Source: Clostridium sp.
GTDB lineage: Bacteria > Bacillota > Clostridia > Oscillospirales > Ruminococcaceae
Assembly: GCA_023664445.1 (NCBI GenBank)
Contig: JAMPFN010000004.1
Location: forward strand, 1 to 64,000
DNA: 64,000 nt
Direction: 5' to 3'
How positions within the stretch are numbered: position 1 is the first letter of the stretch; every line of letters begins with the position of its first letter. This document shows, piece after piece, positions 7,964-64,000 of this stretch. The position numbers and the translations under genes were made by a program. The notes below the pieces were generated by a model, which had not been told where the DNA came from, ran no database searches, and saw only the letters and a list, made by a program, of their open reading frames with translations.

Positions 7964-9169
7964 ATGCCAAAAAAAGTTTATGTTGGAATAGGAGATAAAG
8001 CAAAACAAGTTAAGAAGATTTATTTAGGAGTTGACGATAAAGCAAGAAATGTTAAAAAAGGATATGTTGGGGTAAATGGAATTGCAAGACAATTTTGGCC
8101 TAATGAAGATTTACCTATTAAAACTAATACTACTCTAACATTACAACAAGGAAGAGCTTGGATGGGTACTACAACGCTTGGAGAATATGCCGTCTTTGGA
8201 GGCGGTTTGGGTTTTTTTAATGAGTCATCAAATTCGTGGATCTTTGCTCCATCAACAAAAATTGATGCTTTTGATAAAAATTTTGCCCAATATAGTCTAA
8301 CAACAGAAACAGGTTCTGTACCTGCATTAATAAATATTAAGGATAATGCTCTAACAATAGGAGATTATGCTTTATTTGGTGCTAATGGCTCTTCTCATAC
8401 AAATCAAAGTAAACCTATAACAGTATATAATAATTCTCTTTCTCGTTTAAGTCCGATAGAGTTATCTTCACAAAGATATGATGTAGCTTCAACAACCATA
8501 GGAAATTATGCTTTGTTTGGAGGAGGAAATGGGTCGTCAGAAAGTTCAGGTGTAATATCAAATATAGTAGATGCCTATGATAAAAATCTTAGTCATTCAA
8601 CTCCTACTGCATTAGCACAAGAAAGATCGTATGCGGCAGCAACAACAATAGGGGATTATGCATTATTTGGCGGCGGTACTAACAACGGAGCTATAGATAC
8701 AGTAGAAGTTTATGATAAAAACTTAAACAGAACAACTCCTATTTCATCACTTGTTTCTCCATCTTGGGGAGGAGCAGCAACAACAATAGGGGGTTATGCA
8801 TTATTTGGTGGTGGAGTTAGTGATACGATTGGCATTAATGTAGTAACTGCATATGATAATAATTTAAATAGAATAACTCCGACTTATTTATCTGAAAACG
8901 CTTATATGCCTATGGCAACCAATACAAAAAATCATGCTATTTTTATTATAGGACAAAAAGCATCAGCCAATGTTTCTGCAAATTTTACAAATATAATAGA
9001 TCTTTATGATGAAACTCTACAACGTCATAGCTTGAAATCATCAATTAGTGCAGGAGGTATAAGTGGTATTACAATTAAAGATCATTTGCTAATTGGTGGA
9101 GGTTATTATCAAAATAGAGCAAATTCAACTCCTATTTATTATAATAAAATAGAAGTTTATGATATCTAA
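7964..9169 (+). CDS. Kelch-like beta-propeller tail protein
   Basis: 401 residues. The N terminus has three short repeats (KKVYVGIGDKAKQVKK / KIYLGVDDKARNVKK / GYVGVNGIARQFW), a known prefix of Firmicutes phage virion proteins. From about residue 60 onward, at least five repeats follow the pattern xATTIGxYALFGGGxxxxxxxxVxAYDKNLxxxTP, kelch-type blades that would fold as a beta-propeller. It probably binds carbohydrate or protein at the cell surface as part of the tail tip. RBS AGGAGATGAACAT. Confidence 0.75.
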   Translation: MPKKVYVGIGDKAKQVKKIYLGVDDKARNVKKGYVGVNGIARQFWPNEDLPIKTNTTLTLQQGRAWMGTTTLGEYAVFGGGLGFFNESSNSWIFAPSTKIDAFDKNFAQYSLTTETGSVPALINIKDNALTIGDYALFGANGSSHTNQSKPITVYNNSLSRLSPIELSSQRYDVASTTIGNYALFGGGNGSSESSGVISNIVDAYDKNLSHSTPTALAQERSYAAATTIGDYALFGGGTNNGAIDTVEVYDKNLNRTTPISSLVSPSWGGAATTIGGYALFGGGVSDTIGINVVTAYDNNLNRITPTYLSENAYMPMATNTKNHAIFIIGQKASANVSANFTNIIDLYDETLQRHSLKSSISAGGISGITIKDHLLIGGGYYQNRANSTPIYYNKIEVYDI

Positions 9170-14040: not shown

Positions 14041-15471
14041 ATGAGAAGTTGTTTAGAAGGTTTGTGGAGAGAAATTGATCCGCTAATTTCAGAAGTATTG
14101 CATGATGGTAATAATTCAGATTTATGTGGGAAACATAATGATATGCTGAATTTTGTTGCAGAAAAAATTTCTGAAATAATAAATATTGTAAGATATGTAA
14201 ATGAAGGTGATGCAATAACCTTAGAGCATCTATTAGTATTTGCTAATATATTAAAAAACGATACAGATTTACCACTTCACAGATTAACAACAGCAGCAAA
14301 TGCTGCTGTAACCCTTTCGAAAAAATGTAATTTATGTGCTATTTGCCAAAATTGCTCATATAAAAAATATATGTTAATTTTAGAACATAAAATGAACGAA
14401 AGAGCGATTTCACATGGATTAAGCAACTATTTTTCAAAACCTCAGAGAATGTTTTATTATTTATCATTTTATGACAAACTGAAAATGGTAAACAGCTTAG
14501 AAAATAAGATTTTTTGCTTAAAAGGATTTTCTTCTTCAACGCCATTAATACATTCTGCCATTTTTAAGAATGTATGTTATGGAGGAGGAATTTATATTAA
14601 TTTTGGGGGTAAAGGTATTGTCATAGACCCTGGTGTGGATTTTGTGGATACTATGCATAGAATGGGGATATGTATTAGAGATATTGACGCAGTTATTATT
14701 ACACACGCTCACATGGATCATAATGCCGATGCTGATGCACTTTCTTCTCTCAATTATGATTATAATGCTTATATGACGAAATCCTTCTTTGTTGGCAAAT
14801 TACTGGAAAGAACCCAAATGGTGGGTCATGACATAAAATGGATAGTAGATGATTTGGATTGTAATCAATTAGAGAACAATGGAGTACAAAATATTGAGCT
14901 GTTAAGTGAATATAATGAACGTTGTATATTTACCGATAAAAAAAGTATTAAATTACAATTTGTGCAAACGAAGCATATGAAAAATGAAAAAACTTATGGA
15001 ATTAAATTGACATATGAAAATTTTAGTATCGGTTATACTTCTGATACAGCTTATTTAAATGAATTTAATGATTTTTTTGATGATTTAGATGTTTTGATTT
15101 TTAATATCAGTGATATTTATGAGAAAGATGTTATAGGAATAAAAAGCAAACACACACATTTGGGATATAATGGGAGCGTTAGTTTGTTAAAAAATATTCC
15201 TAAGTCACCAAAACTTTCAGTTGTTTCTGAATTTTGCTGTACAAATGGTGATATAAGAGAAAAAATAATCGCAAAAATGAAAGATGATTTGGGTGAGAAA
15301 TTTAAAGGCACTTTACTTCCAGGAGAAATCGGTTTAGTAATTTCAATTCCTGAATTAAAAGTTAGATGCGATATCTGTAGACAATATATTAACCCTGAAA
15401 ATACATACATACTTTCACCAGAACATGAATATGGAAAAATTTCTTTTGTATGTGGAAATTGTTTCAGATAA
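14041..15471 (+). CDS. Metallo-beta-lactamase-fold hydrolase with two zinc-finger extensions
   Basis: 476 residues. Residues about 170-420 form an MBL fold: THAHMDH at 221-227, His312 (TKHMKNEKTYG), Asp335 (YTSDTAY) and the HTH at 371-373. This complete metal-ligand set favours phosphodiesterase or RNase Z-like chemistry. The N-terminal ~150 residues are helical and end in C-x2-C-x2-C-x2-C (Cys96-105). The C terminus adds a second finger (Cys443, Cys446, Cys471, Cys474). MBL enzymes of this style occur in phage-bacteria conflict loci (for example Apyc1 degrades cyclic nucleotides), so a defence or counter-defence role is plausible. The substrate is unknown. It is preceded by an attenuator and followed by three small genes. 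Confidence 0.75.
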   Translation: MRSCLEGLWREIDPLISEVLHDGNNSDLCGKHNDMLNFVAEKISEIINIVRYVNEGDAITLEHLLVFANILKNDTDLPLHRLTTAANAAVTLSKKCNLCAICQNCSYKKYMLILEHKMNERAISHGLSNYFSKPQRMFYYLSFYDKLKMVNSLENKIFCLKGFSSSTPLIHSAIFKNVCYGGGIYINFGGKGIVIDPGVDFVDTMHRMGICIRDIDAVIITHAHMDHNADADALSSLNYDYNAYMTKSFFVGKLLERTQMVGHDIKWIVDDLDCNQLENNGVQNIELLSEYNERCIFTDKKSIKLQFVQTKHMKNEKTYGIKLTYENFSIGYTSDTAYLNEFNDFFDDLDVLIFNISDIYEKDVIGIKSKHTHLGYNGSVSLLKNIPKSPKLSVVSEFCCTNGDIREKIIAKMKDDLGEKFKGTLLPGEIGLVISIPELKVRCDICRQYINPENTYILSPEHEYGKISFVCGNCFR

Positions 15472-50940: not shown

Positions 50941-51025
50941 ACCTTATATATAGTAAACGACAAAGTCTTTTGGCGTTTACTATTTGCCGATTTGCACGAA
51001 GCGAACGGAGTGAGCGAATGTGCAA
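50941..51025 (+). promoter_or_regulatory. Late-promoter-like motif followed by two hairpins
   Basis: ACCTTATATA (50941-50950) abuts TAGTAAACG (50951-50959), which pairs perfectly with CGTTTACTA (50974-50982). A second stem TTGCAC/GTGCAA (50992-50997 with 51020-51025) encloses GAAGCGAACGGAGTGAGCGA. It is the promoter-like site at the head of the structural module. Confidence 0.6.
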
Positions 51026-51075
51026 GGCATTTTAAATAATTGTTTTATAGTAACTTATGTATGGAAGTGATAAAA

Positions 51076-53252: not shown

Positions 53253-53774
53253 ATGAACGTCAAAACTTTTGATAGTTCAGATAATACTGTATATGATAAT
53301 TTATATCAGCGACAGAAAGAAAACGCATCAAAAATGCGTACCGCTATGCTTGCATTATCAAGCGAAAACGGAGTAACGACACGTCAGGCTATTCAGGAAA
53401 TAACAAGCATGAGGATATATCATCAGCTTGTCAGGATAATCCGATATACGGAGCTTATGGATAAACTTGAAAATAAGCTGTATGAATCCATAGAATATTC
53501 AATTGACAATGCAAACAGTTCCGACCCGTCAACATGGGCGGCTCTGCTTTCAATTCAAGAGAAATTACAGAAGTCTATGATCGAATCGCATAAGCTTCTT
53601 CAGCCGTATCTTGATATACAAGACCTTGCAGTTGTAGACCTGGCAAGCACAAAGGTTGATACATCTTCCGTATCGCCTATAATGAATCCGGAAGACAGAG
53701 ATAAGTTAAGGTCAAACGCACAGGCAGTTCTTAAACAGCTTCAATTATCAGGCGGTGACGCTGATGGTCAATGA
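53253..53774 (+). CDS. Candidate small terminase subunit by position
   Basis: 173 residues from ATG 53253, RBS CCGGAGGTGTGTCAG. All-helical (NLYQRQKENASKMRTAMLAL; TRQAIQEITSMRIYHQLVRI; MDKLENKLYESIEYSID) and ends 11 bases inside the large terminase gene. A helical oligomer directly before terL is the usual TerS profile, but no DNA-binding HTH is clearly visible, so this is inference from context. Confidence 0.4.
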   Translation: MNVKTFDSSDNTVYDNLYQRQKENASKMRTAMLALSSENGVTTRQAIQEITSMRIYHQLVRIIRYTELMDKLENKLYESIEYSIDNANSSDPSTWAALLSIQEKLQKSMIESHKLLQPYLDIQDLAVVDLASTKVDTSSVSPIMNPEDRDKLRSNAQAVLKQLQLSGGDADGQ

Positions 53775-55683
53775 AAAAACTTATGATGAGCTTCCGGAAA
53801 GGATAGGCAACATTTTTGAATCATGCACCAAAGAAGAACAAAAGATACTTCTTGAAATACTGTCTGAACTTAGTACGACAGGCGAATCAGAAACATACAA
53901 TAAGCTGTGGCTTGCCGATTACAAGGAAATACCGGTTGACATCGATACGTTTCTTAATGCAGACGCTTATCTTGGGCGTACAAACCGTAACGGACAGGCA
54001 GTATATCCATTCTGGCGGAAAGAATTGAGAAATGTTTTCGGCGCAGGTAATAAATATCATGAATGGATTCTGACCGGCGCTACACGTATAGGCAAAACGT
54101 CAACTGCTATTGCCGCAACCGCATATATGCTGTACAGGCTTATGTGTCTGCGTGACCCTCAGAAATTCTTTGGTAAGAAAGATATCTCAAAATTCTCTAT
54201 ATTGTTTTTCAATATCACCAAAGACCTTGCTAAAGGCGTTGCATTCAGAGAGTTTAATGATACTCTGAAAGAAAGTCCATGGTTTAATGCGCATGGCACA
54301 TTTTCAAAAAGCGAAAGGGATTTTTATTACATACCGGAAGGCGGTAAGATATCTATCGACTATGGCTCTGACAGCTCACATGGACTTGGAAAGCAGGTAT
54401 TTTGTGCCGTAATGGACGAATGTAATTTTAGCCAGGCAGGTATAAAAGATGTGCAGAAAGCTAAAGCTCATATGAAAGAAACCTATAATACCGTTTCTGC
54501 GCGTATTAAAGGTACTTTTAAGCATGGCGGTGAAGTATTTGGAAAAATCTTTGCAGTAAGTTCAAAACGCAGCGACAGTGATTTCATGGAAGCTTATGTC
54601 AAAGAACAGCTTGATGCAGGCGCAGGCGAACATATGTACATATCAGATGCTCCGCAGTGGGAAGTACTGCCGCCTGAAACATTTTCAACTGAAAGATTTT
54701 CTATTGCAGTCGGAGGACGGAATCAGAAAAGCTTTGTTATACCTGATAATCAGAACTTTCCGGAAGCGATAGCTGATTTGAAGTCACAGGGATATATGAT
54801 ACTGAGTCCGCCAATGGACATGAAATCTGATTTTCTTGCTGATTTTAACGTTGCTCTCAGAGATTTAGCCGGGATAGCGGTAGTGGGAGCTATGTCATTT
54901 ATTACACAGGAATCGTTAAATAAGTGTATAAGCAGATCAAGAAGAAATCCCTTTTATTCGGATATTCTCCAGATCGGCATACAAAGCAGTTATACCATTG
55001 AAGAATACTTCCATGTGGAGGAAGTACCGGAAGTATTTAAAAGAACTCCGATATTCATTCACCTTGACTTGTCGCTTGTGACCGACAGAACCGGTATTTC
55101 AGGCGGAGGAATAACAGGACGTAAGGATATATTGGGTGAGGACGGAAAAAAGGTTTCTCAGCCGTTTTTAAGTCATATGTTTTCAGTTGCCCTTGAAGCT
55201 CCGAGAGGTGATAAAATCCCATATTCCAAGATAGTGGCTTTTATATGCTGGCTAAGGAGACAAGGATTCAATATAGCCGGAATAAGCCGCGATCAGTTTC
55301 AGAGCGAGTATTTGGCACAGCAGCTTGAAGCAGAAGGATTTACGGTAGACAAGCTGTCGCTTGACCGTACGCCTGACGGATATATAGCGTTGCGTTCTGT
55401 AACATTGGAAGAACGTATAGATATGCTTGACAGTAAGCTTTTACAAGATGAGCTGATCCATCTGCAAAGAGACGCTGTGACAGGCAAGGTGGATCATCCG
55501 GTTGGCGGCAGCAAAGATTTGGCGGATTCATATGCGGGCTGGGTGTGGAATGCCTTACAGCACAATCTGGGAATTATCATTCCGGCTAAAACAAAAATAT
55601 CGGCTATCAAAGCAGTTAATGGAAAACGCAGACCGGCAGGCTCTGATCTGCCGAGTATGTTTTCAAATTTATATAAAAGATGA
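53764..55683 (+). CDS. terL: Terminase large subunit
   Basis: 639 residues from ATG 53764 (RBS GGCGGTGACG). ATPase: Walker A TGATRIGKT (104-112), Walker B CAVMDE with Asp218-Glu219. Nuclease domain in the C-terminal half: HLDLSLVTDRTGISGGG (first acidic residue), GISRDQFQSEYLAQQLEA and a late DHPVGGSKDLADSYAG with the last Asp residues. It cuts and pumps DNA into proheads. Size is typical of myovirus terminases. Confidence 0.93.
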   Translation: MVNEKTYDELPERIGNIFESCTKEEQKILLEILSELSTTGESETYNKLWLADYKEIPVDIDTFLNADAYLGRTNRNGQAVYPFWRKELRNVFGAGNKYHEWILTGATRIGKTSTAIAATAYMLYRLMCLRDPQKFFGKKDISKFSILFFNITKDLAKGVAFREFNDTLKESPWFNAHGTFSKSERDFYYIPEGGKISIDYGSDSSHGLGKQVFCAVMDECNFSQAGIKDVQKAKAHMKETYNTVSARIKGTFKHGGEVFGKIFAVSSKRSDSDFMEAYVKEQLDAGAGEHMYISDAPQWEVLPPETFSTERFSIAVGGRNQKSFVIPDNQNFPEAIADLKSQGYMILSPPMDMKSDFLADFNVALRDLAGIAVVGAMSFITQESLNKCISRSRRNPFYSDILQIGIQSSYTIEEYFHVEEVPEVFKRTPIFIHLDLSLVTDRTGISGGGITGRKDILGEDGKKVSQPFLSHMFSVALEAPRGDKIPYSKIVAFICWLRRQGFNIAGISRDQFQSEYLAQQLEAEGFTVDKLSLDRTPDGYIALRSVTLEERIDMLDSKLLQDELIHLQRDAVTGKVDHPVGGSKDLADSYAGWVWNALQHNLGIIIPAKTKISAIKAVNGKRRPAGSDLPSMFSNLYKR

Positions 55684-57258: not shown

Positions 57259-57276
57259 TAACAGGCGGTGAAAATT

Positions 57277-58770
57277 ATGAGAAGTCATTTAATAAGTAAA
57301 CTTTGGTCATTTACAAAGAAACCTAAAGCAAGACCATCATTTTTAAGATACATTGCTTCCGGTTCTTTTGTAAAAATGTCCGATCTGAGAAATAATTCAG
57401 GTGTTTCAGATATAAGGACAAAAATAGAAACAATGCGTTCTCTGGCAGAAGATGCCCAGATCAAAACCGCTTTATCATATTATGCAACAGATTCTACGAC
57501 TACCAATACAGCCGGACAGATAATATGGGCAACATCTGATAATGAGGAAATTGCCAATATAATCAATGCTCTTTTCAAGAAGTGGAATATCGATCTGTAC
57601 GTCCGTGACCATATACTTGAGCTTGCAACGATAGGAAATCTGTATATACCTACTACGGAAATGTACAGGGATTTTTCCAAAAATACAATTAAATACGGAG
57701 TGGCATTGGATAATAATACTATCCCTGATGATGATTTTGATATTGTTCCGTCATATAAAATTCCGCCGGAGGATATTATCCATATATGGTTTCAGGGTGA
57801 ACCAAAGGGTTATATTTATCAGACTGATGAAAAGATACAGGATTACATTACATATCCAGAATCAGCGGTAATACATTTTTCATTGGGTGGTCTGCTGGGT
57901 GATTATACAATTGATACTATCGATACAAACGGAAATCCTCAGACCTTTGATATTCAATTTGCAGAACCGCTTCTTGACGGCGCTGTTTCCCCTACGACTA
58001 CTTTGAATCTGCTTGAAGACGCAACGCTTCTGTCATCATTTATCCGCGTCATAAAGTTTGTAAATGTAGACTGTGATGATGTTGAAGATGAAACAGAGAT
58101 ACAGAATATTCTTCAGCAGTTTAAAGACGCTATCGAACAGCAGTTGAGTATAAATACGGCAACAGGCGATATTCAGAGCTTTTTAAATCCTCAGAGTCCG
58201 AATAATTTTATATACATTCCGAAAGTAAAAGGGCAGGACGCAATATCCATTACTGATCTGAATATGACTGAAAATACAGATGCCGATAACAAGCTGCTTG
58301 ATTATTTTCAGAATAAAAAGCTTTCGGTATTGGGTATTCCGAAGGAAGCTTTGAACTTTACGGCAACCGAGGGACTTGGTAATGCAGGTACTGTTATGTC
58401 GCAGCGTTCGGCTTTATACGCAAATATCCTTGAAAGGCTTATGACTGCATATAAGAATGGGTGGACTCAGGCATTGAATATATATTTCAAGGAACATAAC
58501 ATGAGCGGTTTCATTGATAAGTTTGAGCTGCACATGAATCCTATTGTCACAACTCAATTGACTGTTCAGTTTGAAAAACGCGACGCTGCAATAAATCAGG
58601 CTTCAACATTGCTGCAGCTTATGAAAGACGCAGGCGTTACCGACAGTAAACCTATTCTCAAAGCATTTACAGAAATTCTCTCTGAGGTATTTCCGCAAAT
58701 GGGCGCTGAAGCTGTAAACTGGGATATAAATGTTGACGACAGTTCCGGAGGTGATTCAAGTGAATTCTGA
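57277..58770 (+). CDS. Portal protein (T4 gp20-like)
   Basis: 497 residues from ATG 57277 (RBS AGGCGGTGAAAATT). LRNNSGVSDIRTKIETMRSL, then LFKKWNIDLYVRDHILELAT, GNLYIPTTEMYRD, YPESAVIHFSLGGLLGD and KLLDYFQNKKLSVLGIPKEAL (AGLGNAGTVMSQRSALYANI) match T4-type portals. The dodecamer forms the DNA entry vertex and docks the terminase and tail. It overlaps the next gene. Confidence 0.88.
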   Translation: MRSHLISKLWSFTKKPKARPSFLRYIASGSFVKMSDLRNNSGVSDIRTKIETMRSLAEDAQIKTALSYYATDSTTTNTAGQIIWATSDNEEIANIINALFKKWNIDLYVRDHILELATIGNLYIPTTEMYRDFSKNTIKYGVALDNNTIPDDDFDIVPSYKIPPEDIIHIWFQGEPKGYIYQTDEKIQDYITYPESAVIHFSLGGLLGDYTIDTIDTNGNPQTFDIQFAEPLLDGAVSPTTTLNLLEDATLLSSFIRVIKFVNVDCDDVEDETEIQNILQQFKDAIEQQLSINTATGDIQSFLNPQSPNNFIYIPKVKGQDAISITDLNMTENTDADNKLLDYFQNKKLSVLGIPKEALNFTATEGLGNAGTVMSQRSALYANILERLMTAYKNGWTQALNIYFKEHNMSGFIDKFELHMNPIVTTQLTVQFEKRDAAINQASTLLQLMKDAGVTDSKPILKAFTEILSEVFPQMGAEAVNWDINVDDSSGGDSSEF

Positions 58771-61627: not shown

Positions 61628-61855
61628 ATGATCTACAAAAATGTATCTCACGCCACAAAAACCTTTCATGGCGTTGAATTTAATCCCAGTGATGTAAAAG
61701 AAGTTGACGGATATATAAACTATCCGGGTTTTATACGCAGTTCAAAAAGCGAACTTAATGAATTTAACAAGCCGACAGCTTCAGCCAAGAAATCATCAAA
61801 GACTACAGCGGTTAAAGAGGAGGTAAAATCTGATGGCACAAATAGTGATAAATGA
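61628..61855 (+). CDS. Small protein preceding the tail sheath (75 aa)
   Basis: MIYKNVSHATKTFHGVEFNP start, RBS GCGAGGTGATATTATT. The first ~50 residues form a small beta-like unit (KEVDGYINYPGFIRSSKS). The C terminus is a low-complexity Lys/Ser/Thr tail (ASAKKSSKTTAVKEEVKSDG). It overlaps the sheath gene by 23 bases. Function unknown. Confidence 0.6.
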   Translation: MIYKNVSHATKTFHGVEFNPSDVKEVDGYINYPGFIRSSKSELNEFNKPTASAKKSSKTTAVKEEVKSDGTNSDK

Positions 61856-63938
61856 GATCAGCCAGAACTATACATATAACACCGGAAATAATTCATTTGC
61901 AACGGTAGCCTTGCCTATTACAGCAATGTGGGGTCCGGGATATACCGAACCCACCGATTCAGGAATGACTATTGATGAAATGCTGGAAGTTACAAAGTGG
62001 ACGCATTTTCCGGCAACACAAGCAGGTCTTGAATCGTTTGTATCGACCTATAGAGGACCTTCCTCAAATTACAAACTTGCAAATGACTATTCATATCAGA
62101 TGGCAATGACGCTTTTGACTGCCGGTTATGATGTTCTTACATGCAGAGTTTGTCCCGGTACGTATGCTGAGGCTGCATTGAACCTATCAAAAAAATCGGA
62201 TCAAGGTTCCCACTTTACAATTCAGGCAAAATATCCCGGAACTTTCGGAAACAAGCTTAAAGTAAAGCTGACAAGAGCAAAAAATGGGACATATTGGAAT
62301 CTTGTAACTTATGTTATGGATACATCCGGAATACAGACAGCGGTAGAAAATCTCGTGTTTGTTTTTGATATAAATAATTCTACTGATTCAATTCCGCATA
62401 TTGATGAAATAGATTCAAAATTTCTGAGGATAATAACCGATATAACTACTGATGACTTTGACGATAATACAGCTAAGGTAGACTTTATGTTGGGTGATTT
62501 AAACCTGAATAAAGAACTTGATGCTGACGATTTACGTATATTAAAAGATTATTTAATCGGGAAGTCTACATTAAGCGGTGTTCAATGGGATATTGCTGAC
62601 ATTCATAAAGATGGCAGCCTAAATGTTTTTGACAGTATGGCATTGGATCATCATATAAAAGAAGGTATAGATCCTGGCGTTGTTGGTACAGGTTCAATAG
62701 GTGATATTTCAGTAATGCTTACCGGCGGCACCGATTTTAATTTATCTGATGCTAAAACTGTGGAAAAAGCATGGGAAAAAGCTAAAGAATATGCTGAACA
62801 GAGATATACAGGAAGTAAAATCGGCGATACAAACGTTGGCGTAGGTTATTCAAATAACTGTCAATATCTGAATGGGTTTAATATAAAAACTTCTACTATT
62901 GATATAGTTACAGCACAAACTCAGATGTATAAAGAGTGGATATATAATGCCGCATTTATAGTGTATGATCTGCTTCAGGATAAACTCAATTACAATCCGC
63001 AAAGAATTATAAGTCCGGGTTGGGACGATCAGGATATATGCAGCTTGACGCATACTTCCGATTCAGTAAAAATTACGGATATATCACCGCTTCATGTAAA
63101 AATAATGGAAACAGCATACTACAGCAGATGTGCGACCGGTATGATCGATATTCCTAAATCTGAAAAGCGTTCATGCATACATAATGAAGATGATACTGAC
63201 GATCCGGGATATGCACAAATGCTTGCAAGAATTGCTTCTGACTGGATGAGTAATGATATAAACGGTCCTCTCTACACATCACATTCCGCATTGTTTGCAC
63301 CGTGGGGACAGTATAAATATGTCGGTACGGGCAAGCAGAATGCGGCGTCGCCTTCATTTCTGGCTCTTATGATACAGAGAGCACAGATACTTAATCAGCC
63401 TTTGCAGTATGAATGGGCATTGCCTACTAACAGACGGCATAATCTGAAAGTCGGTAAAATGGATTATGAAGTTCCTAAGAAGCTGCTTGATAAATGGCAG
63501 AAGCTTGACGGCGTAGGCGTGAACGTCATAACGGTAATACCGGAATTGGGATTGAATATATGGGGTAATTCAACATTGTTTGAAGTGCCTCCGGCTACAT
63601 ATCAGGCTCTTGCAAACTTATCAACACGCTACCTTGTAAATGCCGTTGAAAACATTGCTTACATATGCGGTTTATCCATTACATTCCAGTATAACAATGT
63701 TCAGGCATACAATAAGTTCTATGCCGGAGTAACACCGCTGCTCGATACAATGAAGAATGTGGGAGCAATTGATGATTACTATGTCAAAATGGCAGCTGAC
63801 ATCAATGGTCTTGATCAGGTAAATGCAAATACGGTTATCGGTAAGATATATCTTGTAATAAACGGCGTGATCAATGATATTTACATTGACCTTATCGCAT
63901 TGCCGCCTGGAGTTGACCTTGATCAGTATAAATCTTAA
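61833..63938 (+). CDS. Tail sheath protein carrying a dockerin-like insertion
   Basis: 701 residues, RBS AGAGGAGGTAAAATCTG. Residues 1-210 and 290-701 match contractile-tail sheath proteins: TYRGPSSNYKLANDYSYQMAM, the CRVCPGTYAEAAL core, and the C-terminal STRYLVNAVENIAYICGLSI, FQYNNVQAYNKFYAGVTPLL. Inserted at about residues 219-281 is a dockerin-type duplication: loop 1 GDLNLNKELDADDL (D222, N224, N226, D230, D233) and loop 2 ADIHKDGSLNVFDS (D256, D260, N264, D267), each followed by a helix. It implies calcium-dependent binding to a cohesin. Confidence 0.9.
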   Translation: MAQIVINEISQNYTYNTGNNSFATVALPITAMWGPGYTEPTDSGMTIDEMLEVTKWTHFPATQAGLESFVSTYRGPSSNYKLANDYSYQMAMTLLTAGYDVLTCRVCPGTYAEAALNLSKKSDQGSHFTIQAKYPGTFGNKLKVKLTRAKNGTYWNLVTYVMDTSGIQTAVENLVFVFDINNSTDSIPHIDEIDSKFLRIITDITTDDFDDNTAKVDFMLGDLNLNKELDADDLRILKDYLIGKSTLSGVQWDIADIHKDGSLNVFDSMALDHHIKEGIDPGVVGTGSIGDISVMLTGGTDFNLSDAKTVEKAWEKAKEYAEQRYTGSKIGDTNVGVGYSNNCQYLNGFNIKTSTIDIVTAQTQMYKEWIYNAAFIVYDLLQDKLNYNPQRIISPGWDDQDICSLTHTSDSVKITDISPLHVKIMETAYYSRCATGMIDIPKSEKRSCIHNEDDTDDPGYAQMLARIASDWMSNDINGPLYTSHSALFAPWGQYKYVGTGKQNAASPSFLALMIQRAQILNQPLQYEWALPTNRRHNLKVGKMDYEVPKKLLDKWQKLDGVGVNVITVIPELGLNIWGNSTLFEVPPATYQALANLSTRYLVNAVENIAYICGLSITFQYNNVQAYNKFYAGVTPLLDTMKNVGAIDDYYVKMAADINGLDQVNANTVIGKIYLVINGVINDIYIDLIALPPGVDLDQYKS

Positions 63939-63953
63939 TGAAATACAAACAAT

Positions 63954-63995
63954 AAAAGGAAGTCATCTATTACTACAAATAGATGACTTCCTTTT
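63954..63995. terminator. Terminator after the tail sheath gene
   Basis: AAAAGGAAGTCATCTATT (63954-63971) pairs perfectly with AATAGATGACTTCCTTTT (63978-63995) around a 6-base loop. It acts in both directions. A strong stop directly after the sheath gene suggests that the tube gene, if adjacent, is transcribed separately. Confidence 0.92.
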
Positions 63996-64000
63996 AAGTT

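Follow-up and report, generated by a model that had tools for sequence, protein, structure and literature searches.

A type I dockerin inserted in the contractile tail sheath protein of a phage from a Ruminococcaceae genome bin

Phages of cellulosome-forming gut bacteria are poorly represented among characterised phages, and their receptors are largely unknown. The locus described here raises the question of why a phage tail sheath should contain a dockerin, and whether such a module could help the virion to stay at the surface of its host. The window, that is, the whole stretch of 64,000 nucleotides that was analysed, makes up nearly all of a contig of 68,180 bases (C102). The contig belongs to a bin of 157 contigs that is 99.95% complete and represents a Ruminococcaceae genome. 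The features discussed below are listed in Table 1.

Table 1. Position of the sheath gene, its parts and neighbouring features in the window (residue numbers refer to the sheath protein)
Feature	Position	Strand	Basis
Terminase large subunit, upstream in the same module as the sheath	53755..55683	+	PHROG terminase
Portal protein	57268..58770	+	PHROG portal
Contractile tail sheath with dockerin insertion, 701 aa	61833..63938	+	ORF, Pfam, PHROG, predicted fold
Outer beta-domain of sheath, interrupted by the dockerin (residues ~108-301)	62154..62735	+	DSSP of model
Dockerin module (residues 220-278)	62490..62666	+	Pfam, bin-dockerin profile, PDB phmmer
Calcium loop 1, D222-D233 (DLNLNKELDADD)	62496..62531	+	Direct sequence
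Calcium loop 2, D256-D267 (DIHKDGSLNVFD)	62598..62633	+	Direct sequence
44-bp inverted repeat, terminator-like, just after the sheath gene	63953..63996	.	Opposite-strand self match, 91%

Identity of the sheath and of the dockerin module

The sheath ORF (61833-63938) is intact and codes for 701 residues, which rules out a misread frame or a broken gene. Tail sheath families of PHROG match residues 20-169 and 378-694 of the protein (phrog_23, E 2.9e-8; phrog_279, E 1.9e-6), and two Pfam sheath models also match, both below cut-off. A structure model built from 40 related sheaths (mean pLDDT 76.7) is matched by the solved sheaths of T4, P1 and phage KP1 and by those of contractile injection systems: Foldseek gives an E value of 2.3e-16 against the T4 sheath, and VIA-align gives Z scores of 24.6 against the KP1 sheath and 22.5 against T4 gp18. 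By its sequence and predicted fold the protein is a contractile tail sheath, as the preliminary description of this DNA had recognised.

The evidence for the dockerin comes from three kinds of search. Pfam Dockerin_1 matches residues 220-275 at 24.2 bits (E 3.8e-5), which exceeds its gathering cut-off of 22.9, and the Pfam scan of the ORF reports no EF-hand family. In a phmmer search of PDB sequences with the 67-aa segment, crystallised dockerins come out on top (E 3e-6 to 4e-5), and the closest of them are type I dockerins of clostridia. When a profile is built exclusively on dockerins found in the bin, the sheath dockerin scores 45.5 bits (E 3e-11 for 100,000 sequences), with a mild circularity in that the profile was seeded with the window's own matches. 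Among approximately 5,200 six-frame ORFs of the window and its phage relatives, this profile finds nothing else at E<10 except a second copy of the sheath ORF. Together, the searches rule out a chance match as well as a generic EF-hand, one of the outcomes that the preliminary description had named as refuting its proposal. On the sequence evidence, the segment from residue 220 to residue 275 is a true dockerin of type I.

The two calcium loops claimed at the outset have the right position and spacing, with an unusual histidine in loop 2. In the 12-residue loops of type I dockerins, D or N is expected at positions 1, 3, 5 and 12. The loop 1 residues D222, N224, N226 and D233 are each seen among the 50 host dockerins that were compared. 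Loop 2 presents D256, H258, D260 and D267; H258 stands at calcium position 3 in place of the usual Asn or Asp, and a histidine is found there in 0 of the 50. The linker of the sheath dockerin is 22 residues long, and repeat 2 carries an NVFD motif. The nearest bin dockerin found lies on contig C84 (G000:C84) and scores 44 bits, a moderate similarity. Model confidence for the dockerin part is low, both within the full sheath model and when it is modelled alone, and the helices after the calcium loops are modelled at low confidence only.

The phage genome and its host

The bin contains 82 Dockerin_1 matches and 8 cohesin matches; the latter include a protein with both a cohesin and a dockerin (ScaC-like) and a short cell-wall-anchor-like protein (ScaE-like). 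A scaffoldin cluster on contig C95 comprises this ScaC-like cohesin-dockerin protein (cohesin at G000:C95:8636-8998), a larger scaffoldin-like protein and the short ScaE-like protein, the end of which resembles a sortase substrate, as in ScaE. Further cohesins of the bin lie on contigs C91, C69, C66 and C100. The scaffoldin-like and ScaE-like assignments on C95 come from sequence and gene order; these two proteins show no Pfam cohesin at one threshold, and a six-frame cohesin search did match them. The 82 dockerins and the scaffoldin cluster bear out the earlier suggestion of a Ruminococcus-like host. The phage lysins, with CHAP, NlpC/P60 and Amidase_2 domains plus CW_7 domains, fit a Gram-positive host. 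In addition, a repeat of about 110 bases lies between phage genes (window 50944-51053) and has many copies, mostly 75-92% identical, in the bin's other contigs and in congeners, which supports residence of the phage in this genus. CRISPR spacers of the genus gave no clear match to a 20-kb stretch of the window, most matches being to the dispersed repeat. The window appears to derive from a large gut phage that infects a cellulose-degrading Ruminococcus.

The order of terminase, portal and sheath is the same in a prophage of Ruminococcus callidus ATCC 27760 (L075), where the tube gene follows directly after the sheath. Here, the tube gene is found on another contig (C146:63006-63548), is 83% identical to that of the R. 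callidus prophage, and begins 162 bases from the contig end. C146 also carries tape measure, baseplate, prohead protease and cell-wall hydrolases. Misassembly of the C102 end, where no tube gene follows the sheath, is therefore not supported, since the tube and the remaining tail genes are on C146; the two contigs probably belong to a single phage genome of 132 kb or more. With the contigs joined in this way, the sheath and tube genes would be separated by a cargo island on C102 that measures at least 4.2 kb. The R. callidus contig begins with chromosomal genes, two of them with dockerins, and then runs into phage genes, so that this relative looks integrated.

Several other features of these genomes were observed. 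The cargo-like island on C102 beyond the window (L080:1-4180) encodes a Fic/DOC family protein as well as small ORFs that start with MKIYK, and C146 has a comparable piece close to its far end. The terminase gene of the R. callidus prophage is interrupted by an intein-like or homing-endonuclease-like insertion (L075:557-4007). The window itself encodes a metallo-beta-lactamase-fold protein (14041-15471), whose match to the anti-Pycsar protein Apyc1 is under cut-off, and a Kelch-like repeat protein (7964-9169), whose matches are under curated cut-offs.

The insertion loop and its variation among related sheaths

DSSP assigns seven predicted strands to the outer beta-domain of the sheath model (residues 113-119, 125-132, 142-148, 155-162, 168-177, 198-202 and 291-295), and Pfam Phage_sheath_domII matches weakly at residues 110-152, under its curated cut-off. 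From the fold match and what is known of the P1 sheath (PMC10304247), this domain would correspond to P1 sheath domain III. The dockerin falls between the modelled strands 198-202 and 291-295. In an alignment of 40 sheaths most core segments are constant in length and three segments vary strongly: query residues 109-133 (18-197 residues), 195-324 (41-217 residues) and 324-369 (31-196 residues). The dockerin occupies the second of these.

The matching seven-stranded domain of the P1 sheath extends outside the sheath (PMC10304247). Because the dockerin sits in a variable loop of a domain that is external in P1, it is most likely displayed in hundreds of copies, and by this analogy its outward display in the assembled sheath is likely. 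According to a survey of sheaths, extra domains point away from the tube and may aid adhesion; stabilisation by such domains is also proposed there (PMC9230969).

A dockerin common to this group of phages is ruled out. None was found anywhere in 50 related viral contigs, some of which are fragments, or in the other 39 of the 40 aligned sheaths, and no relative turned up when the dockerin segment was searched directly against viral contigs. The sheath relatives without a dockerin include the prophage in R. callidus. Other inserts do occur. Two related sheaths (L059:3001-5349 and L061:3001-5331) have CBM5/12 repeats in the loop that corresponds to window sheath residues 109-133, the match being above the Pfam cut-off in one of the two; sheaths of this group do, therefore, carry binding modules. 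The loop that holds the dockerin is filled by a Ser/Thr-Asp repeat (SDSESDTDTESDTDTDTD) in L049:3001-5268 and by a long Ala/Glu/Lys-rich insert in L037, and loop inserts in the sheath ORFs of L036, L040, L047 and L066 repeat motifs of Trp and paired Tyr (e.g. PADWSTNWKSYYSKSGDTYTPL).

With inserts so varied, the sheaths of the group look like a display platform with changing modules. A broader reading builds on this: the plug-and-socket of the cellulosome would have been turned into an adsorption device, the sheath being a platform for exchangeable inserts (dockerin, CBM5/12 and others) that hold virions to fibre-degrading cells and their substrate. We put this forward tentatively, at less than an even chance. 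The combination of dockerin and sheath is itself secure. It is also new as far as the searched papers and sequence collections show, where no described sheath with a dockerin was found, in line with the statement first made for this locus.

Possible functions and comparison with known systems

In type I dockerins, positions 10, 11, 17 and 18 matter for contact with the cohesin. This is in keeping with a mutational study of group 1 dockerins at positions 11 and 15 (PMC5429695). V265 and F266, at positions 10 and 11 of repeat 2 of the sheath dockerin, are kept and are also common in host dockerins. The residues at positions 17 and 18 of both repeats (K238 and D239; D272 and H273) occur in 0 of the 50 host dockerins, where Q/K and K/R predominate at these positions. 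As a result, it cannot be assumed that the sheath dockerin binds the same cohesins as the host enzymes: its partner may differ, or cohesin binding may have been lost.

The group 3 and group 6 dockerins of R. flavefaciens FD-1, which are type I-like, bind no cohesin but that of ScaC, with a Ka of about 1e8 per M (PMC5301203), and group 1 dockerins of R. flavefaciens have linkers of 37-45 residues (PMC2930009). The 22-residue linker of the sheath dockerin and its resemblance to the short-linker dockerins of the bin, taken with the behaviour of groups 3 and 6, point to a ScaC-like partner. Our best guess at the function is calcium-dependent, multivalent attachment to host cellulosome cohesins, most like that of the group 3/6-type ScaC binders.

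How this attachment might work can be outlined from what the sequences show, namely the identities of dockerin and sheath, an insertion point in a loop of variable length, and the abundance of dockerins and cohesins in the host bin. The phage would have acquired a bacterial type I dockerin by in-frame insertion in an outward-facing loop of the sheath, and, with one dockerin per subunit, a tail would carry on the order of hundreds. Since dockerins depend on calcium for folding, the sheath could be built in the cytoplasm, where calcium is low, and turn adhesive only once outside the cell. Once the virion is freed into calcium-containing gut fluid, the dockerins would fold and bind cohesins of surface-attached scaffoldins on Ruminococcus cells, or of scaffoldins left on fibre. 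The virion would be kept near the cell scaffoldins by a large number of contacts along its tail, each of them weak or moderate. Attachment would be reversible yet strongly multivalent, and infection would benefit in that the virion stays at the surface until the baseplate finds the true receptor. An adhesive tail would also have costs, namely sticking to debris and competition with host enzymes.

We consider it an evenly balanced proposition that the sheath dockerins attach the virion to host scaffoldin cohesins. Against it stand the residues at positions 17 and 18 and H258, the single case among about 50 relatives, the competition of host enzymes for the same cohesins, and the low model confidence of the dockerin part, on which its fold and exposure depend. 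Some of the same evidence leads to a different reading, in which the module is a dockerin by descent that has lost cohesin binding and now, as a small surface domain with bound calcium, gives the sheath stability or padding, a role that the Ig-like extra domains of other sheaths may have. In its favour, the calcium loops and hydrophobic core are kept while positions 17 and 18 of both repeats hold residues foreign to the 50 host dockerins; such a reading also suits a loop that tolerates many unrelated inserts, and the stabilising role proposed in the sheath survey. However, V265 and F266 are retained, other known docking specificities differ at positions 17 and 18 too, and a solvent-exposed single domain seems a poor stabiliser. 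We regard a purely structural role as rather unlikely.

It is improbable, in our estimate, that the dockerins serve to capture not cells but scaffoldins in soluble or shed form, or cellulosomes bound to fibre, so that virions are held on the plant fibre on which hosts grow or are coated with host protein. The CBM5/12 repeats of the two related sheaths would likewise hold virions on polysaccharide, but nothing separates cell-bound from fibre-bound scaffoldins, and no cohesin was found in the phage contigs C102 and C146. Least probable is a recent, near-neutral and functionless capture of the domain in a tolerant loop, for although the occurrence is single and the loop hypervariable, the core residues and all typical calcium positions but one are intact. 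Given the moderate similarity to the nearest host dockerin, this intactness suggests that the module is old and kept, or that it came from an unsampled source.

Attachment through sheath dockerins is a testable hypothesis in which phages also attach to the cellulosome, the key machine for degrading fibre at the cell surface. Were this the case, pressure from phages could influence how diverse cohesin-dockerin specificities are, and dockerin sheaths would offer natural nanotubes on which enzymes could be displayed through a docking module that is already in place.

A dockerin is likewise encoded in the record of Ruminococcus phage NatCom_28274 (PV036439.1). That dockerin is C-terminal in a protein with a signal-like N-terminus (L220:538-1626) near the end of the record, and the gene is not evidently a virion structural gene. 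Two other apparent precedents were set aside. Dockerin matches occur in Mexican faecal 'Bacteriophage sp.' records, of which the three whose ORFs were read look like pieces of bacterial chromosome; the 'dockerin carbohydrate binding module' of an E. coli phage tailspike (PMC5967307) is the carbohydrate-binding module structure PDB 2wz8 and not a dockerin. With sheaths that have extra surface domains (T4 gp18, P1 gp22, phage 812; types 2 and 3 of PMC9230969), the present protein has in common the sheath fold and an outward beta-domain. The extra domains of those sheaths are mostly Ig-like or helical, and none is described as a dockerin in the passages of the survey that were consulted (PMC9230969). 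In contrast to cellulosomal type I dockerins, which are found in secreted enzymes, the sheath dockerin lies inside a phage structural protein with no evident signal peptide, and in both repeats its residues at positions 17 and 18 set it apart from all 50 host dockerins. With type I dockerins (PF00404; R. flavefaciens groups 3 and 6) it shares the short linker, the NVFD motif and, probably, the two loop-helix repeats.
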